Part shown: positions 14,614 through 43,369 of the stretch, piece by piece
How the letters are laid out: every line of letters begins with the position of its first letter
Position numbering within the stretch: position 1 is the first letter of the stretch
Assembly: GCA_011391225.1 (NCBI GenBank)
Contig: JAABQY010000003.1
Span: 1-45,816 of the forward strand
DNA length: 45,816 nt
Reading direction: 5' to 3'
From: Desulfobulbaceae bacterium
GTDB taxonomy: Bacteria; Desulfobacterota; Desulfobulbia; Desulfobulbales; Desulfocapsaceae
Notes under the pieces: generated by a model
The model's database searches: none
What the model was told of the DNA's origin: nothing
What the model saw: only the letters and a program-made list of their open reading frames with translations
Translations under genes and position numbers: made by a program

Positions 14614-15918
14614 TCACGGATATAAGATGGTCGGCAACCAAAGGGTAAGAGGCGGCCAATAGGTGGCAAAGAGCAATACCATAAGCGTCACTGCCACCAG
14701 TGGCAAAGCGGCTCGCGCCACCTTCCCCAGCGGCACGCCGGAGATGCCGCAGCTGACGAAGAGGCAAATCCCCACCGGTGGAGTCAGCATACCGAGCGCT
14801 AGGTTGATGACCACTACCACCCCGAACTGAATGGGGTCGATGCCCATCTGCGGTGTCAGAACAATCAGGACCGGCACCAGCAGGATGAGGGCCGCCGTCG
14901 TCTCCATGACACAGCCAACGATCAACAGCCCGACCATAACCAGCAGCAGAAGCCCCCACGGCGGCAGGCCAAGGCCGGACATCGCCACGCCGAGTAGCTG
15001 ACTGGTCTGCTGCATGGCCACAAACCAGGTGAAGACCTTGGCCATGGCGATAATGAAAAGGATTGCCGCGGCGGTGATCTGCGAGCGGATGATCAGCTCG
15101 GGCAGGTCGCGCCAGGCAAGTTCGCGATTGATCACCATGCTGACCAAAAGGGCATAGAAAACCGCCAGCGCCGCCGCCTCGGTGACGGTAACCAGCCCAG
15201 ACAGAATGCCGCCAAGGACGATCAACGGCGCCCACAATGCCCAAAAAGCCTGACGAAACGACTGCAGAGCCAGCGTAGCAGAAAATGGCCGACGGCTGCC
15301 GTAGCCGTGATATTGCGAGAGGAAGGTAGTCACCAGCATCAGGACAAAACCAAAGAGCACACCGACCAGCAGCCCGCCGGCAAAGAGCTTAGCGATGGAA
15401 ACATTGGTGAGAAAACCAAAGATCACCATGGGGATAGAAGGCGGGATGATGATGCCTATCGCTCCTCCGGCGGCAACCACTGCAGCGGCAAAGGCCGGCG
15501 GATAGCCCTGGCGGATCATTGCCGGGATGGCTACGGCGCCGATGGCGGCAGTATCGGCGGCGGCGGAGCCGGAAATCCCGGCAAAAAACATCGAAGCGAC
15601 GATACTGGCGCAGGCCAGGCCGCCCGGCAGCCAACCAACCAGGCTGTCGGAAAAGTCGATGATCCGTCGCGAAATGCCACCCGACTCCATGATCGCCCCG
15701 GCCAGCATAAAGAGCGGCACCGCCAGCAGATCAAAAGAATCGACCCCGGCAAAAAGCAGTTGGACAATGGTCTGGCCAAGGGCCGGGGTCGGTACCGAGG
15801 GCGGAAAAACCCCAGGTGCCAGGATCAGACCAAGGGCTGGGATACCTATCGACAGCGCTATGGGCATCCCCAGGATAATGAGCAAAAAGAGCAGGGCAAA
15901 GAGCAGGAGGACGATCAT
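14614..15918 (-). CDS. dctM: TRAP transporter large permease subunit DctM (cluster 1)
   Basis: A 434-residue inner-membrane protein with about 12 hydrophobic helices, the channel-forming subunit of a TRAP uptake system driven by a sodium or proton gradient. Family signatures are MIVLLLFALLFLLIILGMPIA at the start, MFFAGISGSAAADTAAIG, GYPPAFAAAVVAAGGAIGIIIPPSIPMVI (in part), and NLALGMLTPPVG near the end. ATG-15918 overlaps the dctQ stop by four bases (ATGA), so translation is probably coupled. The frame is open for 81 further codons upstream, but that stretch is the antisense shadow of dctQ. Last gene of the dctP-dctQ-dctM set. Confidence 0.95.
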   Translation of the reverse strand: MIVLLLFALLFLLIILGMPIALSIGIPALGLILAPGVFPPSVPTPALGQTIVQLLFAGVDSFDLLAVPLFMLAGAIMESGGISRRIIDFSDSLVGWLPGGLACASIVASMFFAGISGSAAADTAAIGAVAIPAMIRQGYPPAFAAAVVAAGGAIGIIIPPSIPMVIFGFLTNVSIAKLFAGGLLVGVLFGFVLMLVTTFLSQYHGYGSRRPFSATLALQSFRQAFWALWAPLIVLGGILSGLVTVTEAAALAVFYALLVSMVINRELAWRDLPELIIRSQITAAAILFIIAMAKVFTWFVAMQQTSQLLGVAMSGLGLPPWGLLLLVMVGLLIVGCVMETTAALILLVPVLIVLTPQMGIDPIQFGVVVVINLALGMLTPPVGICLFVSCGISGVPLGKVARAALPLVAVTLMVLLFATYWPPLTLWLPTILYP

Positions 15919-16436
15919 GGCGTGTGCCGCCCTCGGCGCAGGGTCTTGCTGAGATCCGCCAAAACATGGAGTACCAGGATAAGTGCGGCGGTGGGAATCA
16001 CCGAAAAAGGCAGGGCCATGGGGATTTGCAGGGCAGTGGAGGTATGGTACCAGGCCTTGCCGGTGTACAGGGTGCCGAACCAGCAGATGACCGCAAAACA
16101 GCACAAGGTAAGCAGCTGCATGACCAGAAAAATCAGCCGCTCGATACCGGGGCTGAACCAATAACCAATCCCCGTAAGACCAATAAACCAGGCCCGTTTA
16201 TAGGCGGCGGTGGTGCCGAGAAAGGTGATAGCCACCAAGAGGTGTCGGCTCACCTCCTCCGACCAGCCGAGCGAGGCCCCGGCATAGCGGCAGAGCACCT
16301 GGGCAAAGAGGATCAGGCAGATGGCCGAACCTAAAACCAGCAGCACCTTTTCCACCACGGTGTTAATGCGCCTGCTCAACTGCTCGATGGCCGAGGGCCG
16401 GGAGGCGGTTTGCTGTTCGCCCGTCGTGTCGGTCAC
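15915..16436 (-). CDS. dctQ: TRAP transporter small permease subunit DctQ (cluster 1)
   Basis: A 173-residue protein with four hydrophobic helices (starting near residues 30, 65, 100 and 145) and the DctQ signature VLCRYAGASLGWSEEVSRHLLVAITFLG. It partners DctM in the membrane. The start is GTG-16436, whose last two bases and the next A overlap the dctP stop (GTGA). It also overlaps dctM by four bases. The tight overlaps at both ends show one operon. Confidence 0.92.
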   Translation of the reverse strand: MTDTTGEQQTASRPSAIEQLSRRINTVVEKVLLVLGSAICLILFAQVLCRYAGASLGWSEEVSRHLLVAITFLGTTAAYKRAWFIGLTGIGYWFSPGIERLIFLVMQLLTLCCFAVICWFGTLYTGKAWYHTSTALQIPMALPFSVIPTAALILVLHVLADLSKTLRRGRHTP

Positions 16437-17407
16437 TGCACCGCCTGGCGGATCTGCTCGACGATCTTCTTGGCATCGCCACTGAGGGAATCGACAACTG
16501 GGGCCGTTGCCTTTCTAAAAGCCAGGGTGTCGGGAGCATCCTCAACCTGCATGCCGGCAACGCGCAGTTCCGCCAGTTGCTTGTCCTCGTTGTCGCGGAT
16601 AAAGGCCCGCCCTTTAAGCGATGCGGCGCGGGCGGCGTCGATAAACACCTTGCGGTCAGTTTCCGGCAAAGTATCAATAAAAGTTTTATTGGCGAGAAAG
16701 ACCAGTGCCGAATAGACGTGGCGCGAAAGCGTCAGATATTTCTGCCCGGCCTCAATGAGTTTGGCGGCATGGATGATCGCCACCGGGTTCTCCTGCCCGT
16801 CGATGACTCCCTGCTGCAAGGCGGTGAAGATCGGCCATGCCATGGGTGTCGGGTTGGCGCCGATGGCCCGCCAGATGGCGAGATGCGTCGGGGCCTCCAT
16901 GGTACGGATCTTCATGCCGGCAAGATCCGCAGGAGACCTGACCGGACGTTTGGAGTTGGTGACGTTGCGAAAGCCGTTATCAAGAAAATGCAGGGCAAAA
17001 AAGCCTTGCTTGGCAAGTCGTGCCGCCAGGTCCTGACCGATAGGGCCATCTAAAACCTTGTCGGCGGCGGCATAGGAGGGAAAGAGGAAGGGCATTTCCA
17101 AGGCCTTGATTTCCGGGACAAAGGCCTCAATCGGTCCGGTGGTGCACACCGACATTTGCGTGGTGCCGAGCTGCACCTGCTGCAGAACCTGGGTCTCGCT
17201 GCCCAAGGCCCCGGAATGATGGACGACGATTTCGTACTTGCCGGGCAAGGCTTTTTCCACGTCCTCCTTGAACGAGGTGGCCGCCTGGACGTGCACGAAG
17301 GTGGGATTGGTGACAATGCCGATATTGACGACGGTTTTAGCCGAAGCCACACCAAATGACAGGGCCAAGTAAGCGGTAAGGGCATAAACTGTATGTCGCA
17401 AAAGCAT
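16433..17407 (-). CDS. dctP: TRAP transporter substrate-binding protein DctP (cluster 1)
   Basis: A 324-residue periplasmic binding protein. A signal peptide covers about residues 1-25 (MLLRHTVYALTAYLALSFGVASA). DctP signatures include HHSGALGSETQVLQQVQLGT, the ligand-binding arginine region LAGMKIRTMEAPTHLAIWRA, and the FTALQQGVIDGQENP helix. The ligand is usually a carboxylate, but cannot be told from sequence alone. An excellent ribosome-binding site, GAGGAGG, precedes ATG-17407. The frame extends 136 codons upstream without homology. The selenoprotein and HAD hydrolase genes lie upstream on the same strand, 504 bases away, which hints at related substrates. Confidence 0.94.
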   Translation of the reverse strand: MLLRHTVYALTAYLALSFGVASAKTVVNIGIVTNPTFVHVQAATSFKEDVEKALPGKYEIVVHHSGALGSETQVLQQVQLGTTQMSVCTTGPIEAFVPEIKALEMPFLFPSYAAADKVLDGPIGQDLAARLAKQGFFALHFLDNGFRNVTNSKRPVRSPADLAGMKIRTMEAPTHLAIWRAIGANPTPMAWPIFTALQQGVIDGQENPVAIIHAAKLIEAGQKYLTLSRHVYSALVFLANKTFIDTLPETDRKVFIDAARAASLKGRAFIRDNEDKQLAELRVAGMQVEDAPDTLAFRKATAPVVDSLSGDAKKIVEQIRQAVQ

Positions 17408-17911
17408 CCGGTACCTCCTCAGTAAAAGTTGATAACGATCATCTGGGCCGGGAACCCACCCGGAACAGTTCAATAACACTATCTTTTTCTCTTCTATTTG
17501 GCAACTTTTATCTAAATAGCGGTAAATAGGCGGACACCATACGTATTTTGATCTTGAATGGATCAACAAATTGGCGGGGCCATAGATCGGCGCCATGGAA
17601 GACACCATCTTCACTGGCTGGATAAGTCGGGCTATGTATGGCACAATTCGAGCCGTACTGACTTCGGAATGCAGCAAATTCATGTCTGGTCGCATGATCA
17701 ATGCTGACCATAGAAGAGAAGAAAAAGGTCTGAAGATAGCAGGTTGAAAAGAGAAATCACAGGTAGGTCCTGAATCAAGGCCAGGAAGCTTAAAGGGGGG
17801 CTTCCGTTCGGGCACTACTTACGATCTGAAAATGTATTACGAGAAAATAGGCAACTGCGATTTTTGAGAGAAGTACAGTTGATTCAAGCCTTTTTACCGG
17901 TCGTTTGTCTT
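17408..17911. other. Intergenic region between dctP and the selenoprotein gene
   Basis: This 504-base stretch holds no convincing gene. A 67-codon frame on the reverse strand (17508-17711) and a 50-codon frame on the forward strand (17595-17747) are open, but they overlap each other and have no recognisable family or ribosome-binding site. The region must contain the promoter for the TRAP operon if that is transcribed separately. Confidence 0.5.
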
Positions 17912-19138
17912 TCATTCATCAAACCGGTGCATCTGGTTCCTGGGGATCAGGAGAAGCTTGCCTGCAAGACGCATGTCTTTCGCCTCCCTTTTCAAGCAGC
18001 CCTTGCGAACCTCATTGATCACCCGGGCCGCGCAGGTTTCCCCCCAGAACCAGTCGGCAAGAGCCCTGGGTTTGGTCGATTGCCCCGGTTGCGCCGAGAC
18101 AGCTTCGAAGTAATAGGTCCGGAGGTCTTCAGCGGCAGCGCGCAGCACATCGGAGATCCTTTGGCCATGCACTTCCGGTTGGTCAAGAGTGTTGGTAATG
18201 AAATCTGTAAAGAGTCCGGCAATCTCCAGTAGATCAAGTCCGCTTATCCCGACGGTAGATCGGGCTGTTTTTTCGCAGGAGATAGCGTGCCAGGTTTTTA
18301 TGGTAGCCGCTTCGGTCCGGAAATTTTGTAAGAGGAGTTTCTGACCATCGATTTCAAGTGCTGGAGGGGCGAAAAAATTGACCGGACAGGCCACAGGGCT
18401 TGTCTCGGCATCATCCCCTTCCGCATCATGGGGGTAGTCTTCCAGCACCGGGCCGGATGGGCGTTCAAGCAGGTGCAGAGCCTGCATTAACACATCTCTT
18501 TGAAATTGCGGATTGTTCGGAGTTCCGAAGGGGCGCCCTAAAGGGAAAGAGACCCAAAGGGCTCGTGGCGGTATGATCATCTCACTGTGTTCCCGAATCA
18601 GGCTAATCTGGGTTGTGGCAATTCCTTCGGATTCTATAAAGTGGGAGAGCCCGCCAACGGCGCGCGTACAGTTGGGTCAGACTGGAACGAGCAGTACCGC
18701 AGTGACCTGGTCGTTTTTCAAGACCGAGCAGAGGTTCCGTGCTTCCTGCTCCATCTGTGTTGGATCGGTTGCCCCCATGAACGAATAATGGTATTCGGCG
18801 ACGCTGCCGATGAGGCCGTCCATTGCCAATTCTTTGAGCCTGTCCAAGGGAAAGACTGTGTTGAGGTCCTGCTGGAAACCGCTGCGGTCAAAATTGGTGG
18901 AAATATGGCTCATGATCAAATCGTTGGTTCTGACGTTCTGCGGTATGATCCGATAGCCACTTTCTCCGACAGCAAATGGCCGATCAGAGCGGCGATGCAA
19001 GCCTGCTGTCGAAATAAGGGCAACTCGGGCTGCAGATAATTGCATGCCCGAGACAAAAGGGGTTGATGCATAAGTCGGACAGGGAAGATCGAGGAGATGC
19101 TGCCGCTCGCTCTCCTTGTATTGTGCCAGGCGGACCAT
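17912..19138 (-). CDS. GrdB-like selenoprotein (glycine/sarcosine/betaine reductase selenoprotein B family)
   Basis: This is one 408-residue selenoprotein. Residues 1-153 end LLVPV, then UGA (18679-18677) encodes residue 154. Translation continues in the same frame as P-N-C-T-R-A-V-G-G and runs through PRALWVSFPLGRPFGTP to the TGA at 17912. The result is a UxxC redox motif (Sec154, Cys157) followed by the PRALxVxFPxGRP region known in this family. In related reductases the Sec attacks a substrate C-N or C-X bond or forms a selenide-thiol pair. The true substrate here is unknown. Standard gene callers would split it into 153- and 222-residue pieces. AGGAG precedes ATG-19138. The HAD gene ends 26 bases upstream, so the two are probably one operon. 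A cysteine-free read of the UGA as a stop is the alternative, but would discard a conserved domain. Confidence 0.88.
18654..18679 (-). promoter_or_regulatory. Sec UGA codon and candidate bacterial SECIS stem
   Basis: Immediately after the in-frame UGA (18679-18677), CCAAC (18675-18671) can pair with GTTGG (18658-18654) across a 12-base loop. Bacterial SECIS elements lie directly downstream of the UGA within the coding sequence, so the position fits. The stem is short and starts closer to the UGA than in E. coli fdhF. The exact fold needs computation. Confidence 0.45.
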
Positions 19139-20293: not shown

Positions 20294-21748
20294 TTACCGA
20301 ACGTCAATATCTAGGCCGACCTGCCCCTGAATGCGGTCAAGCTCGGCAAGAGCCAATGCGTAAGCGACCTCGCTCTTGTTCTCTTGGCTGAGGGCTTGGG
20401 AATAGGCTTCCTGAGCGGTCAGAACATCGAAGGTAGTTGCCCGCCCGACATCAAATTTTGCCTGTTCGGCCTCAAGCCGTTTACCGGTGGCAAGGGTGGT
20501 TTTTTGGGTTGCCTCCATGGCTTTTTGCGCCAGTTGCACATCACGAACCGTTGTCCGAACGCTCTGCTGCACCTGCAGCCGCAGGAGCTGAGCACTGTTT
20601 TTCGCCTTGTTATGGGCGGCACCGGCCTGGCGATACAAGCCTTTCGCGGCACTGTTCTGCAGGGGCATGGAAAAGGCCAGTCCCGCCTGCCACTGGGTTT
20701 TCGGGTCATCAACGGCATCGCTCATGGAATCACCATATACATTATCCGTACCACCCTGTCCCACCAGGCCAACCAGGGCAAGGGAAGGCCTGATGTTATC
20801 AAGAGCAACCTCCTCCTGAATCTTTGCCGCCTCAATAGCAAGCTCGGCAGCCTTCACATCGGGTCTGCTGGTCAGGGCGTTATCCTCAATGAACTGCAGA
20901 TCTGGTGTCACTGGGGCAGTCGGTGGAAGGTCTGTCAGAATAATCGGTATATGCCAATCACGGCTGTTCATGAGCAGCTTCAGTTCATCCTCATGGAGGC
21001 CGATGGTACGATCGGCGAGAATAAGACTCTCCTCTCGCCGGGCGATCTCCGACTGGGGCTGATAGATATCGACCGAAGCGAGCTTGCCGGCACCGATCCT
21101 CTCCTCGGTTTCATCAAGGAGTTTTACGGCAAGTTTCAGGGACAGTTCTTTAACGGACTTATCCTGCCAGGCATAGAGTAGATTCCAATAGGCTCCCTTA
21201 ACCTTGGCCGCCAAATTAGCCGCCTCCGAGCTGACGAGAAAAGTTGCGGCAGCGAGATTTTTTTCCGAAGCCCGCATCGTGGCGGTCTGCCGGTCGATAC
21301 CAAAGCCCTGGAGCAGGGGTTGGCGTACTCCGAGACTGAGACCGGAGTTATACACCGGATCGATAAGGGTGGTTACCGGTGTGCCGGCAAATCGACTGTT
21401 TTTCCAGTTCAGGTTGACTTCGGTACCGGTGATATATTTTTTCTGAACGCCCAAGGCCCACTGGGCAGTTTTCTCCTCTTCCGAATCGCCGGGGATGACA
21501 GGCGTCCTCTCGAGGCTTTCCGCCCCACCTTCGCCCTTGGCGATAATGTCAAACTCGCCCTCGGCGGCCTCCTTGGCCCCTTCCGCCGAATTGACATCGT
21601 CCTTTTGCAGCTGCAGACCGATATTATTGGCAAGAGCCAGCTGCACCGCCTCGGCAAGGGTCAATTTGACACCACTCCCGGCCGTGACGGTGCTGGGAAA
21701 AGCAGAAAGGAGAAGCACACTGACGAAAATATATTTCAAAATACGCAT
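20294..21748 (-). CDS. TolC family outer-membrane efflux protein
   Basis: A 484-residue outer membrane channel that connects to the RND pump to export compounds across both membranes. A signal peptide covers about residues 1-23 (MRILKYIFVSVLLLSAFPST). Two OEP repeats follow: LTLAEAVQLALANN near residue 28, long helices with ASEKNLAAATFLVSSEAANL, and a second half with QAGLAFSMPLQNSAAKGLYRQA and FDVGRATTFDVLTAQEAYSQAL. Length is typical. The ATG overlaps the RND stop by one base (TAATG), so translation is probably coupled. Last gene of the tetR-MFP-RND-tolC operon. Substrates cannot be read from sequence. Confidence 0.93.
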   Translation of the reverse strand: MRILKYIFVSVLLLSAFPSTVTAGSGVKLTLAEAVQLALANNIGLQLQKDDVNSAEGAKEAAEGEFDIIAKGEGGAESLERTPVIPGDSEEEKTAQWALGVQKKYITGTEVNLNWKNSRFAGTPVTTLIDPVYNSGLSLGVRQPLLQGFGIDRQTATMRASEKNLAAATFLVSSEAANLAAKVKGAYWNLLYAWQDKSVKELSLKLAVKLLDETEERIGAGKLASVDIYQPQSEIARREESLILADRTIGLHEDELKLLMNSRDWHIPIILTDLPPTAPVTPDLQFIEDNALTSRPDVKAAELAIEAAKIQEEVALDNIRPSLALVGLVGQGGTDNVYGDSMSDAVDDPKTQWQAGLAFSMPLQNSAAKGLYRQAGAAHNKAKNSAQLLRLQVQQSVRTTVRDVQLAQKAMEATQKTTLATGKRLEAEQAKFDVGRATTFDVLTAQEAYSQALSQENKSEVAYALALAELDRIQGQVGLDIDVR

Positions 21749-24700
21749 TATTTTTCCTCGTTTGGTCTTTGCTCACCGGCCAGCAGGGCATAGGGCCGCC
21801 AGTAAAGATTCTTGATACGCTCCGCGGCCTGTTGCCTGAATTCTTCGAACCTGGCGGTCAAATAATACAGTGTCGGGACAACAATCAGCGTCAGGACAGT
21901 GGCGATTAAAAGACCAAAGATGACAACATTGGCCATCGACTTCCACCACATGCTCGATTCACTGACCCAGGCCATCGTCCAGGAATGAAAATCATAGGAA
22001 ATACCGGTGACCATGGGAATCAGCCCAAGAATGGTGGTAACGGCGGTGAGCAGCACCGGCCGCAAGCGGGTGGCACCGGCAAAAACTACCGCATCCGCGA
22101 GGTCATGGCCGCGTTCCCGCAACTTATTAATATAATCGAGGAGAACGATGGCGTTATTGACGACCACTCCGGCAAGGGAAATAACCCCGACCCCGGTCAT
22201 GATAATACCGAAGGGTGCCTGGAAAATCGCCATACCCAGGAAGGCGCCGCCCAGCGACAAAATGACCGAGGTCATGATGATAAAGGGCTGGCTCACCGAG
22301 TTGAACATCGCCACCAAAGTCAGGAAAATGAGGAGCAGGGCGACGAGAAAGGCCTTGGAAAGAAAATCCTCGGACTCCTTCTGTTCATCCTGTTCGCCGG
22401 TAAATTTCATGGTATAACCCGCCGGCAGCACAAATTTATCGACGTATTTCATGGCCTCCATCCTGACTACCGGACCGGTGGTCTTGGTCTCTTCGATATT
22501 TGCCTTGACCGTCACCACCCGTTTGTTGTTGATGCGGTTGATGTCACCGATCGAACCGGCGAAAGTGAAACTCGCCACGGTGGACAGAGGCACCATTTCT
22601 CCTGACGGGGTCGGCATCATCAGTTCATGGAGGACATCCACCACCCGACGGTCAGAATCCTTCAGCTGCAGGGTGATGTCGAAATCATCATTGCCCTGGC
22701 GAAAAGAGGAAACATTCAAGCCGTTGTAAGCACTTTTCAGGGCAAAGCCGATCATATCGGTGGTCAAGCCGAAGAGTGCCGCCTTTTGCCGGTCGACCAC
22801 CACCTGTACCGAAGGAATGCCCTCGACAAAATTATCGCGCACATCCTCAACAAAGGGCATCTCGCTGAGCACATCCTTGACCTGCCTGGCGATCTTGCCC
22901 AGCACCTCAAAGTCCGGCCCGGAAATCTCAAGATTGATCGGCGCCCCGGTCGGCGGTCCTTCCTCTTCTTTGGCGATGGTGATCTTGCCGCCCGGGATAT
23001 CCTTCACCCGTTCACGAATGGTGCTGACCGTGACATGCGTTGATTCGCTGCGATCTTCCAGTTCAAGAAAACGTACGCCGACATGGTTTGGAGTATTGGA
23101 ACTGAAGACCGAACCACCCGCCGCACTGGCCACGCCTTGGATGTAGACATCCTTAACGTTTTTCAGGTCGCTCGGGCCAAAATATTTCTCCCCTTTCGGC
23201 TTGGTGTATTCTTTTGGGGCAAGAGCCGCCAACACCGATTTTTCCAGGCCGGAAGCTTGTGTTGCAGAGCCCTTGGCGACACCGGCAATGGCCAGTTCGA
23301 CCCGTTGGATTATACGATCGATATAGTCGAGATCCGCCCCTTCCGGGGTGTCGATATTGACATAAAAGCCTTTGGGATCGATCTCCGGAAAAAATTCCAC
23401 CGGTTTTTGCAAACCGATAACCAGAAGCCAAATCTCGAACATGAGAATGAGTCCACCGAAACTGAGGCCGAGAATGGACCACGGTTTTGCCAGGCAGGCT
23501 CGCAGCGTCCGGCTATACAGGGTGGTCCAGAATCCCTTGATTTCCATGGGCTTATCAACCGCCGCCGACATTTCCTCGATGCTCATGCCGCTGTGCTCGG
23601 TGCGGCCTTTGATCTTCATAAAAATCGAGCCCAGGGCCGGATTGATGACAATCGCGACGAAGAGACTGGCAGTCAGGGTAACGATCAGAGTAATCGGCAG
23701 AAAACGCATGAATTCACCCATGATGCCGGGCCAGTAAAGCATAGGAAAAAAGGCCGCAAGGGTGGTGACGGTCGAGCCGATAACCGGCCAGGCCACCTCG
23801 CCCGTCGCCCGCATACAGGCCTGCACCTTTGTCGCCCCCTGCTGCATGAAGCGGTAACTGTTTTCGATGATGACGATGGCGTTGTCAACCAGCATGCCGA
23901 GGGCCAGCGTCAAACTGAAAAGCACGACCATGTTGAGGGTTATGCCCATCATATACAGGACGATAAAGGCAATAAACATCGAAAAAGGGATGGACAGGCT
24001 GACGAGAATAGCATTACGCATGCCCATGGACAGAAATATAACCAGCAGCACCAGCACCAGGCCGGAGTAGATATTGTTCTCAAGGTCGGCGATCATCACC
24101 TCGATATCCCTGGATTTATCAAGCACCTTGGTAATCTTGGTGCCCTGTGGCCACTTGACTTGTGCCTCCTCGATAATCTTGCCGACCTTGTCGCTGATGG
24201 CGATGATATTCTCACCGGAGCGCTTCTTCACCGACAGATTGACGGCATCCTGGCCGTTCAGTCGAGAGATACTGGTTTCTTCCTTGAAGCCGTCAATAAC
24301 CCCCGCAACATCCTTTAGATAGACCGGTTCACCCTTGTGCGTGCCAATAACCAGGCCGTAGATCTCTTCCGGGGTCTTGAATTCACCCGGCACTCGGAGT
24401 TGAAAACGGCCGTCACCAAGGCGAATGGCGCCGCCCGAGGTGTTCAGGTTCTCGCTTTTTACGGCATTTTGCAGACTGCTAATGGTCAGGCCGTAATAGC
24501 CGAGTTTTTCCGGAGCGACCTCGACCCGGATCTCCCGCGTCAGCCCGCCATTCACCTCGACCTCCATGACCCCGGAAATCGCCTCAATCTCGTCCTGCAG
24601 GTCGTCGGCGATGTCTTTGAGGCATGCCAGGCCACAGCTGCCGGAGAGCGAGAAGACAATGATCGGCATCTCCGAGAGATTGACCTCGAAAACCGACGGA

Positions 24701-25077
24701 TCATCTTCGAGATCGTTGGGAAGATCACCCTTCGCCTCATCGACCTTATCCTTAACATCCTGCAGGGCCTTGCTGATATCGGTGCCGGTGACGAACTCGA
24801 CGTTGATGATCGACTTGCCTTCGGAACTGACCGACGACAGTTTCTTCAATCCCTTGATGCCTTTCAATTTTTTCTCAATTTCGATGGTGACCGCCGTCTC
24901 CATGTCGGTGGGCGAGACACCCTTATATTCGGTCGAGACGAAAACAATGGGAATGGTGATGTCCGGCTCGCTCTCACGCGGCAGTGCCTGATAACAATAG
25001 ACTCCGAAGATGATAAACAAAACCGCCAGGACAAAGACGGTGGTATTATTTTTTACCGCTGTATCGGAGATAATCAT
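21748..25077 (-). CDS. RND efflux transporter permease (AcrB/HAE1-like)
   Basis: A 1109-residue inner-membrane pump of the hydrophobe/amphiphile RND type that uses the proton gradient. The first helix (TTVFVLAVLFIIFGVYCYQALPRESEPDI) is standard in type, followed by the porter domain motif GVSPTDMETAVTIEIEKKL. TM4 carries LALGMLVDNAIVIIENSYR with its conserved Asp. The second half repeats the layout, ending with GVISLAGVVVNNAIVLLDYI and a final TM bundle. It is somewhat longer than AcrB (about 1050), mainly from inserts in the second porter loop. The acidic DIT at the N-terminus and the many DxE stretches argue for organic substrates, not metals. ATG-25077 overlaps the MFP stop (ATGA). Confidence 0.95.
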   Translation of the reverse strand: MIISDTAVKNNTTVFVLAVLFIIFGVYCYQALPRESEPDITIPIVFVSTEYKGVSPTDMETAVTIEIEKKLKGIKGLKKLSSVSSEGKSIINVEFVTGTDISKALQDVKDKVDEAKGDLPNDLEDDPSVFEVNLSEMPIIVFSLSGSCGLACLKDIADDLQDEIEAISGVMEVEVNGGLTREIRVEVAPEKLGYYGLTISSLQNAVKSENLNTSGGAIRLGDGRFQLRVPGEFKTPEEIYGLVIGTHKGEPVYLKDVAGVIDGFKEETSISRLNGQDAVNLSVKKRSGENIIAISDKVGKIIEEAQVKWPQGTKITKVLDKSRDIEVMIADLENNIYSGLVLVLLVIFLSMGMRNAILVSLSIPFSMFIAFIVLYMMGITLNMVVLFSLTLALGMLVDNAIVIIENSYRFMQQGATKVQACMRATGEVAWPVIGSTVTTLAAFFPMLYWPGIMGEFMRFLPITLIVTLTASLFVAIVINPALGSIFMKIKGRTEHSGMSIEEMSAAVDKPMEIKGFWTTLYSRTLRACLAKPWSILGLSFGGLILMFEIWLLVIGLQKPVEFFPEIDPKGFYVNIDTPEGADLDYIDRIIQRVELAIAGVAKGSATQASGLEKSVLAALAPKEYTKPKGEKYFGPSDLKNVKDVYIQGVASAAGGSVFSSNTPNHVGVRFLELEDRSESTHVTVSTIRERVKDIPGGKITIAKEEEGPPTGAPINLEISGPDFEVLGKIARQVKDVLSEMPFVEDVRDNFVEGIPSVQVVVDRQKAALFGLTTDMIGFALKSAYNGLNVSSFRQGNDDFDITLQLKDSDRRVVDVLHELMMPTPSGEMVPLSTVASFTFAGSIGDINRINNKRVVTVKANIEETKTTGPVVRMEAMKYVDKFVLPAGYTMKFTGEQDEQKESEDFLSKAFLVALLLIFLTLVAMFNSVSQPFIIMTSVILSLGGAFLGMAIFQAPFGIIMTGVGVISLAGVVVNNAIVLLDYINKLRERGHDLADAVVFAGATRLRPVLLTAVTTILGLIPMVTGISYDFHSWTMAWVSESSMWWKSMANVVIFGLLIATVLTLIVVPTLYYLTARFEEFRQQAAERIKNLYWRPYALLAGEQRPNEEK

Positions 25078-26225
25078 AATGTCAATTCCTTCACATCAAG
25101 GGCGGCCTTGACCACCTTGACCTTCTGGTTGTCCTCAACATCGCGGTGTCCCTCGACCACCAGCCTTTCGCCGCCTTGCAGTCCCTCGACCACCTCGACA
25201 TACCATTTTTCCATGATGCCGAGACGGACCTTTTTCTTGTGGACAATGGCATCTTCTTCAACATAGACGTACTGTTCGTTGTTTCTGGAGATAACGCTGT
25301 AAAAGGGTATGACGATGGCGTCGGGGACGGTCTTTTTCACGACATCGGCGCGGACAAACATCCCCGGCAGTACCGCGCCGTCGCTGTTGTCGATGGCCAA
25401 TTCCAGGCGGAAAATCCGCGCCACCGTCTCAGGGGACGAAGAGAGAAAATGGACCTTGCCGGTAATGATCCGGTCTTTTAATGCCTGCAGCTTGACATCG
25501 ATGGTTTTCAGACCCCGCACCGCCGTGACATCGGACTCAGGGATGCCGACCACCGCCTTCAACCTATCGATTTCCATGATTTCGACGATCGGATCGCCCA
25601 CCGCCAGCTGGAGACCGACCTTAGCATCGACCTTCTTGATCAAGCCATTCATCGGGGCGGTCACCAGGCAACGGGAATACTGGAGTTTGGCGTTGTCGTA
25701 ATCGGCCTTGGCGGTTTCCATCTGGGTTTTGTTGGTATCGAGCATGGCGGTTGGAATGACGCCCTTGGCGTGGATGGCTTTATCCCGCTCGTGCTCCGCT
25801 TTGGCAAGCTCAAAGGCGGCTTTCGCCCGATCGACACCGATGCGGTAATCCTCATCGTTAATGCGGACGATCACATCTCCCTTTTTGACCTTCTGCCCCT
25901 CTCGCACCAAGACCTCGTCAATGGTACCATTCAGTTTCGAAAGCAGGGCAAGGGTGGTCCAAGGCTCAATATTTCCCGGCAGGTTGATCCGGTCGTTGAC
26001 CGCTTCCGGTTTGAGGGCAAGTGTCACCACATTGACCGGAGGACGCTCCTGCTTTCCTCCCGCGGCCTTCACCGAGGCTATTGAGGCGCTCTCTTTTTTG
26101 ATTGCCCCGGCCAGGATAATGATCAGCACTACTACAGCAAGCAGCAGAAAACGCGGCAGATTGTTCCATATGAAAAAGACGACTTTTGCCCGTACAGTTC
26201 GAGTGACACTCCTCTGGTTATACAT
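25074..26225 (-). CDS. RND periplasmic adaptor (membrane fusion) protein
   Basis: A 383-residue adaptor that bridges the RND pump and TolC. It begins MYNQRSVTRTVRAKVVFF, with one N-terminal membrane helix (FLLLAVVVLIIILAGAI) and no lipobox. Then come the lipoyl half-motifs (LLSKLNGTIDEVLVREGQKVKKGDVIVRI and its partner RCLVTAPMNGLIKKVDAKVGLQLAVGD, each cited in part), the helical hairpin between them, and a beta barrel (KAVVGIPESDV...PGMFVRADV). The start at 26225 lies inside the end of tetR, overlapping by eight bases. AGGG stands eight bases upstream. The reading frame extends upstream only as tetR shadow. Confidence 0.92.
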   Translation of the reverse strand: MYNQRSVTRTVRAKVVFFIWNNLPRFLLLAVVVLIIILAGAIKKESASIASVKAAGGKQERPPVNVVTLALKPEAVNDRINLPGNIEPWTTLALLSKLNGTIDEVLVREGQKVKKGDVIVRINDEDYRIGVDRAKAAFELAKAEHERDKAIHAKGVIPTAMLDTNKTQMETAKADYDNAKLQYSRCLVTAPMNGLIKKVDAKVGLQLAVGDPIVEIMEIDRLKAVVGIPESDVTAVRGLKTIDVKLQALKDRIITGKVHFLSSSPETVARIFRLELAIDNSDGAVLPGMFVRADVVKKTVPDAIVIPFYSVISRNNEQYVYVEEDAIVHKKKVRLGIMEKWYVEVVEGLQGGERLVVEGHRDVEDNQKVKVVKAALDVKELTL

Positions 26226-26856
26226 GTTTATTCCCTTCATTTGAAAGAGGTTCAGGCCGGGGGTGCAAGCCCTCAATAGCCTGACGGAATAGGGTCTGGA
26301 GGGCCATTGAGGCCTCTTCGGTCTGAACTCTGCCGCTGAACCACGCCGACACCAGCAGGAGATACAAGCCGTAAAAATGTCCGGTGATATAGAGAAGCTC
26401 CACATCCTTGCGCAATTCACCCCGTTCCTGGGCCTTCTCAAGAAGGGGGAAAAGCAGTTTGAAATAATCGTTTTCGTGCTCCAGATGCCGGTCAAGATCG
26501 ACGTCACGGGGAAAGGCGGTCTGTTGCATGAAGAGGCGAGCAAATTCTCTATTTTCAGTAATTTTTTTAAATTCAGCCATATAGATACTCACCATCTGTT
26601 GCAGAATAGGAATTTCCTGATCGGCGTTGCTGGTGAGTTCCTGATGCAGACGCTCCAGTTCATCCTCGCAAAAGGCGTGAAGGATGTCGGTTTTAGTTTG
26701 AAAATATCCATAGATCGTGCCCTTGCCTATACCGGCCGCCTTAGCCAATTCTTCGATACTCGTTTGGTCAAAACCTTTTTCACTGAAAAGGGTCATTGCC
26801 GCCTGCATGATCGCCTGGCGGGTTTCCTTTTTTTTCGTTTCTCTAATGCCTGGCAT
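26218..26856 (-). CDS. TetR family transcriptional regulator
   Basis: A 212-residue repressor, first gene of the efflux operon. The DNA-binding HTH lies near residues 28-60 (MTLFSEKGFDQTSIEELA, then IGKGTIYGYFQTKTDIL). The rest is a helical ligand and dimer domain ending in a TetR_C-like FYGLYLLLVSAWFSG stretch. Being first in the operon and next to two matching dyads around the promoter, it most likely represses its own operon and lets go on binding an efflux substrate. The stop codon is eight bases inside the MFP gene. Confidence 0.93.
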   Translation of the reverse strand: MPGIRETKKKETRQAIMQAAMTLFSEKGFDQTSIEELAKAAGIGKGTIYGYFQTKTDILHAFCEDELERLHQELTSNADQEIPILQQMVSIYMAEFKKITENREFARLFMQQTAFPRDVDLDRHLEHENDYFKLLFPLLEKAQERGELRKDVELLYITGHFYGLYLLLVSAWFSGRVQTEEASMALQTLFRQAIEGLHPRPEPLSNEGNKHV

Positions 26857-28144: not shown

Positions 28145-29137
28145 ATGAAAAAACTGACGCATCTGGTTTTAGCACTGACCCTCGGAATCGGCATGATCGC
28201 CGGCAGCGCCCAGGCGAAAACCACCTGGACCGCCAACTCAGTATGGCCACCCAACAATCACCAAACATTGGCCCTGGATGAGTTTGCCGCCAAGGTCAAG
28301 ACCCTTACCGCAGGCGAGCTGGAGATCACCGTCAGCAGCGGCGGCGCGCTTGGCTACAAGGGCCCGGAACTCTTAAAAGTTGTCCGTGACGGCATGGTCC
28401 AGGTCTCCGACATGCTGATCAGCGGCGTCGCCGGTGAGGAAAAAATCTTCCAAGTCGTCACCCTGCCGTTTTTAGCACTCAATTTCCAGGAATCAAAACT
28501 GCTGAATGAAACCGCCCGCCCCTATTTTGATAAAACCGCCGCCAAATGGGGTCAGAAGATCCTCTTCATCTCCCCCTGGCCGGGGGCCGGACTGTGGACC
28601 AAGCGCCCCATCGCCTCGGTCGCAGAGATGAAAGGCTTAAAAACCCGCACCTACGATAAAAACGGTTCGCTCGTCGTCGAAGCGGCCGGCGGCACACCCT
28701 ATACCCTGGCCTTCAGCGAGGTATATTCCTCTTTAGCCACCGGGGTAATCGACTCGGTCATCACTTCTTCGCCTACCGCCGTCGACGCCAAATTCTGGGA
28801 GGTCCTCAAATACCATCAGCCGATGAATATCACCATCGCCACCGACATGATCAACGTCAACCTCAAGGCCTTTGAAAAACTCGACAAGAAAACCCAGGAC
28901 GCCGTGGTTCAGGCCGGTCTGGAAATGGAAGAGGCGATGTGGAAAAAGCAGGCCTCGATTGACGGAGAGAAAATCGATATCTGCACCAAGAACGGTATGC
29001 AGACCCTTGTTCCTTCCGCCGATTTCATGAAGGCCCTGGCCGTCATTACCGAAAAAATCCGTACCGACTGGCTGCAGGACGCCTCCCCCGAGGCCAAGGC
29101 CCTGTATGCCGAGTTCATGGCAAAGGTCAAACGCTGA
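28145..29137 (+). CDS. dctP: TRAP transporter substrate-binding protein DctP (cluster 2)
   Basis: A 330-residue periplasmic binding protein with a clean signal peptide (MKKLTHLVLALTLGIGMIAG, cleaved near AQA|K at residue 25). The family helix EVYSSLATGVIDSVITS and the ligand arginine region GLKTRTYDKNGSLVVEA are present. AAGGAAG stands before the ATG. It opens a dctP-dctQ-dctM-pxpABC run on one strand. The context makes 5-oxoproline or a related cyclic or dicarboxylic acid a plausible ligand. It is only distantly similar to the DctP of cluster 1. Confidence 0.95.
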   Translation: MKKLTHLVLALTLGIGMIAGSAQAKTTWTANSVWPPNNHQTLALDEFAAKVKTLTAGELEITVSSGGALGYKGPELLKVVRDGMVQVSDMLISGVAGEEKIFQVVTLPFLALNFQESKLLNETARPYFDKTAAKWGQKILFISPWPGAGLWTKRPIASVAEMKGLKTRTYDKNGSLVVEAAGGTPYTLAFSEVYSSLATGVIDSVITSSPTAVDAKFWEVLKYHQPMNITIATDMINVNLKAFEKLDKKTQDAVVQAGLEMEEAMWKKQASIDGEKIDICTKNGMQTLVPSADFMKALAVITEKIRTDWLQDASPEAKALYAEFMAKVKR

Positions 29138-29765: not shown

Positions 29766-31064
29766 GTGGAACTTGCAAGCATTTCTCTTACCCTCTGCGC
29801 CCTGCTGGTATTGTTCATGGGCGGCACTCTTTGGGTCGGCATCTCTCTTTTTCTCGTCGGCTTCGGCGGCTTTATCATCTTCACTGAGCTGCCCTTCGGT
29901 GCCATCCTTGCCACCACCGGCTGGAACAACACCAGCGGTTCGGCGATGATGGCCCTGCCGATGTTCGTGTGGATGGGCGAAATCCTATTCCGCAGCCGGA
30001 TTTCCGAAAACCTCTTCAAGGGCTTGACCCCATGGATGGACCGCATCCCCGGTCGGCTGCTGCATGTCAACATCCTTGCCTGTACCTTTTTTGCCGCGGT
30101 CAGCGGTTCTTCGGCGGCAACCACCGCAACCGTCGGCAAAATCACCGTCCCGGAACTGACCAAGCGCGGCTATAATAAAAGCCTCACCGTCGGTTCGCTG
30201 GCCGGTGCCGGCACCCTCGGCTTTCTCATCCCCCCGAGCATGATGATGCTGGTTTACGGCATTATCGGCGATGTCAGCATCGGCAAGTTGTTCATTGCCG
30301 GCATCGTTCCCGGCTTTATGCTGGCGGGAATTTTCGGTCTTTACATCATGGTTCGTTGTCTTATCACCCCGAGTATGGCCCCGGCCGGTGCCGAGCAGCA
30401 CACCTGGCTGCAGCGGCTTCAGGCCATTCCGGAGATCCTTCCGGTCCTCGTCCTCATCCTGGCTGTACTCGGCAGCCTCTATGCCGGATGGGCCACACCG
30501 ACCGAGGCCGGGGCAGTCGGCGTCGTCGGCTCGATGGTCTTCGCCTTTACCACCGGGGACATGAATGTCCAGGTATTGCGCAAAAGCCTCATGGGTTCGA
30601 TCAAAACCACTTCGATGATTATGCTCATCGTCCTCGGCGCCTCCTATCTTTCGGTGGTTGTCGGCTATCTCGGCATTACCCGCAAGTTGACCCTGTTTGT
30701 CACGGAAATGGGCCTATCGCCGTTCATGCTCATTGTCATTCTCAGTGTCCTGTATATCATTCTCGGCTGTCTCGTTGACGGCTTTTCGATGATCGTCATG
30801 ACTACCCCCATCGTCCTGCCGCTCATCACTGCCGCAGGCTTCGACACGGTGTGGTTTGGTATATATCTGGTGTTGATGATCGAGCTGGCCCAGATCACCC
30901 CGCCGGTCGGCTTCAACCTGTTTGTTATCAGTTCGATAAATAACGACGATCTCCTGACCATAGCCCGAGATGCCATGCCGTTTTTTTCCCTAATGGTTCT
31001 GGCTACCGCATTAGTAACGGTTTTCCCACAGATAGTTCTGTTTTTACCGAACCTTATGAAATAA
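29766..31064 (+). CDS. dctM: TRAP transporter large permease subunit DctM (cluster 2)
   Basis: A 432-residue protein with about 12 membrane helices, the channel subunit. Signatures are FFAAVSGSSAATTATVGKI, GSLAGAGTLGFLIPPSMMM, ILGCLVDGFSMIVMTTPI and QITPPVGFNLFVI. It starts at GTG-29766 with AGGAG upstream and lies 15 bases after dctQ. It runs on to pxpA with a 35-base gap, so the same transcript probably carries both the transporter and the hydrolase. Confidence 0.95.
   Translation: MELASISLTLCALLVLFMGGTLWVGISLFLVGFGGFIIFTELPFGAILATTGWNNTSGSAMMALPMFVWMGEILFRSRISENLFKGLTPWMDRIPGRLLHVNILACTFFAAVSGSSAATTATVGKITVPELTKRGYNKSLTVGSLAGAGTLGFLIPPSMMMLVYGIIGDVSIGKLFIAGIVPGFMLAGIFGLYIMVRCLITPSMAPAGAEQHTWLQRLQAIPEILPVLVLILAVLGSLYAGWATPTEAGAVGVVGSMVFAFTTGDMNVQVLRKSLMGSIKTTSMIMLIVLGASYLSVVVGYLGITRKLTLFVTEMGLSPFMLIVILSVLYIILGCLVDGFSMIVMTTPIVLPLITAAGFDTVWFGIYLVLMIELAQITPPVGFNLFVISSINNDDLLTIARDAMPFFSLMVLATALVTVFPQIVLFLPNLMK

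Positions 31065-41326: not shown

Positions 41327-43369
<2,043 letters not shown>

Follow-up and report, generated by a model that had tools for sequence, protein, structure and literature searches.

A long, probably stand-alone member of the PrdB/GrdB superfamily with a conserved in-frame UGA, very probably a selenoprotein, in a Desulfobulbaceae bacterium

In the established reductases to which the gene described here is related, a selenocysteine (Sec) breaks a C-N bond next to a carboxylate, and a pyruvoyl subunit serves as partner. Marine surveys count proteins of the PrdB/GrdB type among the most frequent bacterial selenoproteins, and these are named proline or glycine reductase by homology alone. 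PrdB-like selenoproteins were reported from 2005 to 2008 in marine metagenomes and in Deltaproteobacteria, and the short forms in marine and deltaproteobacterial genomes were called proline reductase PrdB (PMC1088965, PMC2398784, PMC1794560). From these earlier reports a Sec UGA in this superfamily is to be expected. What differs in the present gene is that it encodes a long form with a domain of its own, and that a plain ORF call would split the gene and thereby lose the active site. In the searchable literature, which leaves most subscription journals outside its scope, we came across neither a long form without partners nor a paper on a GrdB together with a haloacid dehalogenase or on a pairing of a haloacid dehalogenase (HAD) with a selenoprotein. 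It is unlikely that the long form is either proline or glycine reductase as these are known. The explanation that fits best, and that is very probably correct, is that it is a Sec-containing, stand-alone, long member of the PrdB/GrdB superfamily whose UGA at codon 154 is read by means of SelB, tRNA-Sec and a bSECIS.

The window, by which we mean the whole stretch of 45,816 nucleotides that was analysed, carries this gene on its minus strand (Table 1). The frame starts with an ATG at 19138 and runs for 153 codons up to ...QVTAVLLVPV, where it meets the TGA at 18679-18677. Beyond this TGA the same frame reads PNCTRAVGGLSH..., starting PNCTRAVGG, it passes the ATG of the second ORF at 18580, which is codon 187 of the merged frame, and it closes with a TGA at 17914-17912, so that the product has 408 residues and the TGA at codon 154 is the sole interruption. 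The first-pass annotation of this DNA had proposed that the two apparent genes are a single gene with an in-frame UGA, and the reading of the strand, the translation and the homologues with the same TGA all confirm it. Translation likewise returned the 153-residue frame ending LLVPV at the TGA and the 408-residue merged product that had been claimed, and both the VPV-U-x-x-C motif and the PRALWVSFPLGRP segment are found in the merged protein. The prediction that standard annotation would split the gene is borne out by the plain ORF list, which gives one piece of 153 aa and another of 222 aa. The distance from the TGA to the second ATG, which had been put at 9 plus 25 codons, has to be corrected to 32 (9 plus 23). 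When the window was scanned for other ORFs interrupted in a Sec-like manner, no convincing second case was found.

Table 1. Positions in the window of the selenoprotein gene, its parts and its neighbours.
Feature	Position	Strand	Basis or remark
Whole selenoprotein gene	17912..19138	-	408 codons plus TGA stop; translation with TGA=U
In-frame UGA, codon 154, putative Sec	18677..18679	-	TGA conserved in homologues; Cys in distant Roseomonas relative
Cys157 codon, second residue of UxxC	18668..18670	-	Invariant across the 25 full-length long forms
PrdB/GrdB-like reductase domain, residues 1 to ~236	18431..19138	-	TIGR04483 over 32-225, PF07355 over 33-151
C-terminal helical domain, residues ~240-408 (~170), specific to the long form	17915..18421	-	Alignment, AF2
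Putative bSECIS hairpin GCGCGCC-GUU-GGCGGGC, one G.G mismatch	18649..18665	-	MFE fold
Codons 158-162 (TRAVG), strongest synonymous constraint	18653..18667	-	Near-invariant codon columns
Haloacid dehalogenase type II, 234 aa	19165..19869	-	Upstream, 26 bp before the selenoprotein start; TIGR01428
TRAP solute-binding protein DctP	16433..17815	-	Downstream; PF03480, TIGR00787
TRAP large membrane subunit DctM	14614..16161	-	PF06808

The search for homologues covered 93 genomes from the same family and a further 395 sampled from the phylum, and each locus was read on its correct strand. The long form was found at 30 loci, the window included, and the TGA stands at codon 153-155 in all of them; for L068 and L069 it is counted at codon 145, since the match begins about ten residues in, and L067 and L066 are cut or frame-shifted after the UGA. 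With four further long-form loci with the TGA from an order-wide search this makes 34 loci, that is, 33 homologues besides the window, which aligned to full length or nearly so, come from separate assemblies and span many families of the phylum. The motif around the UGA in the long-form loci is P[VI]-U-PxCT, and the identity of full-length long forms is 50-68% within the family and mostly 44-54% in other families. A Cys version of the Sec site was not seen among the long forms found. In a distant Roseomonas relative outside the long form the site is Cys (VPN-C-PVC), and the alignment that had been suggested as a check of residue 154 therefore gives TGA in the long forms and Cys in this relative. 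Because the differences between homologues fall mostly on third positions, the codons after the UGA evolve as coding sequence. Over codons 155-186 the differences at positions 1, 2 and 3 are 12, 12 and 41% when compared to L022 and 6, 9 and 44% when compared to L024, and this bias is seen on either side of the second ATG, in the 32 codons leading up to it as well as in those that follow. There are 74 invariant columns among the 25 full-length proteins and about half of them lie at or downstream of the UGA.

These data bear directly on the possibility that translation really ends at the TGA, or that the TGA arose by a sequencing error or a recent nonsense mutation, which would leave separate ORFs or a decaying gene. 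The ORF caller does give two genes, and decay does occur in the long-form family, since a further locus (L057) has a TAA at codon 128 and the copy in genome G423 is badly broken. However, a TGA that is shared by 34 loci in separate assemblies and many families refutes this possibility, purifying selection acts on both sides of the TGA, and the genome has Sec machinery. Moreover, homologues ending at this position had been named as evidence that would count against a selenoprotein, and no intact homologue among the long-form loci of the family and phylum genomes ends at codon 153. A true stop or a decaying gene is thus hardly credible here. The broken copy, L114 (G423:C1:3700455-3701295), lies in a single-contig genome and has many stops and frame changes, and it is a case of gene loss in progress.

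The bin from which the window comes (3.0 Mb in 304 contigs, 84.7% complete) contains a tRNA-Sec (72 bits) with the anticodon TCA according to ARAGORN, and a SelB (323 bits) at a contig edge. It also contains a SelD that has its own UGA, RTCGUAAK (L017, G000:C182:19097-20026, minus), and this SelD, being a selenoprotein itself, lends independent support to UGA standing for Sec in this genome. The proposed search for the selenocysteine pathway thus recovered selB, selC and selD. SelA did not turn up in the bin, though it is present in 12 of 14 genus mates, including 10 of 10 of high quality, and the simple reason for its absence is that the bin is incomplete. SelB was above the cut-off in 23 of the 29 other long-form genomes; it was present only as fragments in G062 and G034, and in G064, G065, G101 and G125 none was above background. 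G064 and G065 belong to one genus and each is more than 90% complete, and incomplete assemblies may account only in part for the long-form genomes in which SelB is missing.

A frame that is open under TGA=W would appear identical locally, and therefore the TGA could in principle be read as another amino acid, Trp for example, through an altered genetic code or general read-through. This is very improbable, however, because both the selenoprotein gene and its neighbour terminate in TGA, the genome has a tRNA-Sec with the anticodon TCA, the site is Cys in the distant relative and belongs to a UxxC redox motif, and the codon constraint just downstream of the UGA points to a local RNA signal.

In the bSECIS model the loop has 3-9 nt, the stem has 4-16 bp, the element lies 16-37 nt from the UGA and there is a G within the first two loop places (PMC13188914). 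The window has a putative hairpin that fits this model: it begins 11 nt past the UGA, and its loop, G-U-U at 18658-18656, lies 18 nt past the UGA. Across the loci the hairpin is GCGCGCC-GUN-GGCGGGC and the first loop G is invariant. Its pairing is kept in 83.7% of cells, and the covariation is slight, as only two pairs have changes on both sides, a level that was reached by 6 of 500 shuffles. A SECIS model score of at least 12, which is the window's value, was obtained at the UGA in 24 of 30 loci compared to 157 of 1151 (13.6%) elsewhere in the same genes, and in 6 of the 30 loci the simple stem rule at this threshold is not reached. The energy of the hairpin in the window fold was no better than that of shuffles (z about 0), and RNAalifold favours a somewhat shifted pairing compared to the proposed hairpin. 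No Rfam family reached the gathering score in a scan of the window and a relaxed scan gave nothing relevant at the UGA site, which is expected because bSECIS elements vary.

Codon usage points to the same place. In the 25 proteins, R159 is CGC in 25 of 25, G162 is GGC in 24, T158 is ACG in 23 and A160 is GCC in 19, and codons 158-162 supply four of the five most constrained among 125 near-invariant columns; S179, which has a split codon family, alone ranks beside them. This constraint at the codon level is consistent with an RNA signal. A different stem, pairing 18671-18675 with 18654-18658, had been pointed out in the first-pass annotation. The complementarity is there, but it is not conserved, since 69% of cells are paired, which is no better than shuffles. 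We therefore rejected it as the SECIS and retained the hairpin at 18665-18649, which is backed by conservation and codon constraint. Judged from sequence, UGA-154 is very likely decoded as Sec.

As to the family, the merged protein scores 35 bits with PF07355 (GRDB superfamily), above the gathering cut-off of 22. The N-terminal piece alone scores 38.7 bits with this model and the second piece alone has no match. The best named model is TIGR04483 (PrdB) with 119 bits for the merged protein compared to 88 for the first piece alone, and its match over residues 32-225 spans the TGA; the score is below the equivalog cut-off of 300 bits. Scores were also below the cut-offs for TIGR01918 (48.2 bits, cut-off 65.45), TIGR01917 (40.7, 602.2), NF040794 (55.3, 800) and NF040795 (61.2, 775). 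The earlier description of the protein as GrdB-like is thus right for the superfamily, but GrdB is not the nearest family, as PrdB is closest, itself below its cut-off. In the tree of the common domain the long form makes up one side of a branch with an SH-aLRT of 96, and it is separate from Firmicutes PrdB, from classical GrdB and from the short PrdB-like proteins.

The long form shares with PrdB the reductase domain and a Sec at the homologous place in UxxC, and its identity to Firmicutes PrdB is about 30-34% over about 200 residues. PrdB, however, has about 240 residues, whereas the long form adds a C-terminal domain of about 170 residues and has no PrdA partner. With GrdB, GrdF and GrdH of glycine, sarcosine and betaine reductase it has in common the PF07355 superfamily and a Sec in UxxC. 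Unlike the long form, the GrdB of the same family has TST-U-GTC and is found in genomes with GrdE and GrdA. The pyruvoyl-type partner PF09338 (GrdE/PrdA) and GrdA (PF04723) are absent from the window's genome and from every other genome of the family with the long form; within the family both occur in exactly seven genomes, those with classical GrdB, and the long form is missing from all seven. Of 15 long-form genomes outside the family, 12 lack PF09338, and each of the other three has, besides PF09338, a distinct gene of the GrdB type. The missing partners and the separate branch indicate that the long form is a stand-alone relative and not a subunit of the known glycine or proline reductase. 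That it is nevertheless the Sec subunit of an ordinary reductase complex for glycine, sarcosine, betaine or D-proline would agree with its superfamily and with PrdB as the best NCBIfam match. We consider this highly unlikely, because the scores are far under the specific cut-offs, the long-form genomes of the family lack PF09338 and GrdA and most others lack PF09338, there are long-form genomes of high quality that lack any pyruvoyl partner, and the long form is a separate clade with an extra C-terminal domain.

In the tree, the groups of short PrdB-like selenoproteins lie closest to the long form. They belong to the same superfamily and have the Sec in UxxC, but they are mostly open frames of about 250-340 residues without the C-terminal domain of the long form. 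They occur in very many genomes of the phylum (L072-L083 and similar) with the motif TPG-U-xxCN[QR]SVGL[IV]QR, and naming them PrdB looks unsafe. One short PrdB-like gene, L118 (G449:C12:67393-68001), has Gly at the Sec site of its relatives (TPG-G-GLC), and this is either a sequencing error or a loss of Sec by a route that does not lead to Cys.

The C-terminal domain, which the first-pass annotation does not mention, is present in full-length long forms and absent from the PrdB, GrdB and short forms that were aligned. L068 and L069 are the most divergent, and the invariant residues of the domain are C251, P252, E276, W283, D338, Y343, W363, F364, T368 and P399. When the domain was searched against Pfam and NCBIfam no match was found, and in a profile search of the PDB the hits with E below 0.001 were all designed helical repeats. 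With a profile of the domain, only seven of 146 genomes of the order had matches, and all those matches that were read follow a UGA-containing reductase domain. The AF2 model of residues 255-408 alone has a pLDDT of 82.9 and is predicted to be all helices. Foldseek with this model gave a best E of 1.6, and VIA-align found only helical bundles with Z under 5. The fold matches to 14-3-3 and to designed repeats are generic helix bundles, and no function was read from them. A model of the whole protein from two sequences had a pLDDT of 48 and was unusable, so that a fold search on it is meaningless. That no solved relative of the predicted fold was recognised does not make the fold new.

Directly upstream of the selenoprotein gene lies a HAD type II gene, whose product scores 163.5 bits with TIGR01428, above the cut-off of 125.4. 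Its best PDB matches are L-2-haloacid dehalogenases, and an L-azetidine-2-carboxylate hydrolase is also among its PDB matches. Nine genomes, the window's and eight others, have this gene or an orthologue immediately upstream on the same strand, at 27-107 bp where measured; this count takes in G064 and G063 from the neighbourhood comparison. The residues D8, T12, R39, S116, K149, Y155, S173, N175 and D178, which correspond to the nine known catalytic residues of L-2-haloacid dehalogenase, are invariant in the nine HAD orthologues, and the upstream HAD thus resembles L-2-haloacid dehalogenase in its score above the cut-off as well as in keeping the whole catalytic set. The HAD neighbour is confined to one part of the clade and other neighbours are found elsewhere. 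An IcmF-like gene for a fused B12-MeaB-mutase protein lies ahead of the HAD-selenoprotein pair in five genomes, and in a sixth the end of such a gene lies directly ahead of the selenoprotein alone (L086, L089, L090, L091, L099 and L094); the link here would be to acyl-CoA rearrangement. In a different part of the clade from the HAD cases, a MEDS/DcmR-type regulator adjoins the long form in four genomes and is about 1.1 kb off in a fifth (L062, L097, L098, L104 and L106). The MEDS domain has been described as a sensor of simple hydrocarbon derivatives (PMC11507031). Many long-form genomes have no HAD, TRAP or MEDS neighbour. The DctP gene downstream in the window is possibly a member of the operon in this genome only, and it was not seen in the other long-form neighbourhoods that were compared.

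In the best explanation SelB and tRNA-Sec decode UGA-154 as Sec, guided by the short bSECIS hairpin, and the product has a reductase domain with the pair Sec154-x-x-Cys157, followed by a lineage-specific helical domain. All of the chemistry of the long form, by contrast, we infer. The selenolate of Sec154 may attack the electrophilic carbon, or the leaving atom, of a small and probably 2-substituted organic acid, and a carbon-heteroatom bond would be broken by this attack. Cys157 would then resolve the adduct to give a selenenyl-sulfide, and dithiols of the cell, of the thioredoxin type, could re-reduce it. Unlike proline and glycine reductase, the long form would work without a pyruvoyl subunit and without GrdA, and the C-terminal domain may take over part of the substrate-binding role of the missing partner. 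Since there is no pyruvoyl subunit, the most likely use would be reductive cleavage of a carbon-heteroatom bond in a small acid that is already activated. By analogy with its relatives, the long form might well be a carbon-heteroatom reductase, which we regard as close to an even call though slightly short of one.

It is also conceivable that the protein contains Sec but serves general thiol/selenol redox, that is, the reduction of disulfides or peroxides, and does not act as a carbon-heteroatom reductase. Many thioredoxin-like selenoproteins have the UxxC motif too (PMC1088965), and short forms of the PrdB-like kind occur widely in the phylum. We take this reading as a serious alternative, though one that is less likely than not. 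Against it stands the cleavage of C-N bonds by glycine and proline reductase, the relatives that have been characterised (PMC13188914), and a small organic acid is suggested as substrate by the HAD type II gene that is a constant neighbour in one clade.

From the HAD neighbour, 2-substituted acids, possibly halogenated, would be the first candidate substrates of a carbon-heteroatom reductase. Azetidine-2-carboxylate would be the second, because it is given as the substrate of one HAD type II structure and is a proline analogue. A special case of the best explanation is that the selenoprotein and the upstream HAD act jointly to dehalogenate or degrade 2-substituted acids, with TRAP uptake of the acid in this genome. 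Such a role would agree with the HAD upstream in nine genomes with all nine catalytic residues kept, with the TRAP genes DctP and DctM just downstream here, and with the MEDS/DcmR-type regulator adjoining or near the gene in five other genomes. However, HAD type II enzymes use other substrates too, as the L-azetidine-2-carboxylate hydrolase does, and in several genomes the next gene is that for IcmF, a protein unconnected with halogens. These neighbours are, in addition, all missing from many long-form genomes. We therefore propose this role only tentatively, and that the substrate is tied to haloacids at all is equally doubtful. It is rather unlikely, as a still more specific proposal, that the long forms are a partner-independent selenoenzyme subfamily of the Desulfobacterota type which, together with the HAD, would remove a halogen or heteroatom reductively, the helical domain replacing the pyruvoyl subunit. 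Nevertheless, the HAD link is a testable lead on the role of the orphan PrdB-like selenoproteins.

The window also has a second TRAP set on the plus strand, DctP at 28145-29137 and DctM at 29766-31064. On the minus strand upstream of the HAD gene there are RND efflux genes at 20294-26856, for an OEP, a permease of 1109 aa, a membrane fusion protein and a TetR regulator, and at 41327-43354, also on the minus strand, lies the gene for an FMN and pyridine-nucleotide oxidoreductase of the old-yellow-enzyme type with 675 aa.
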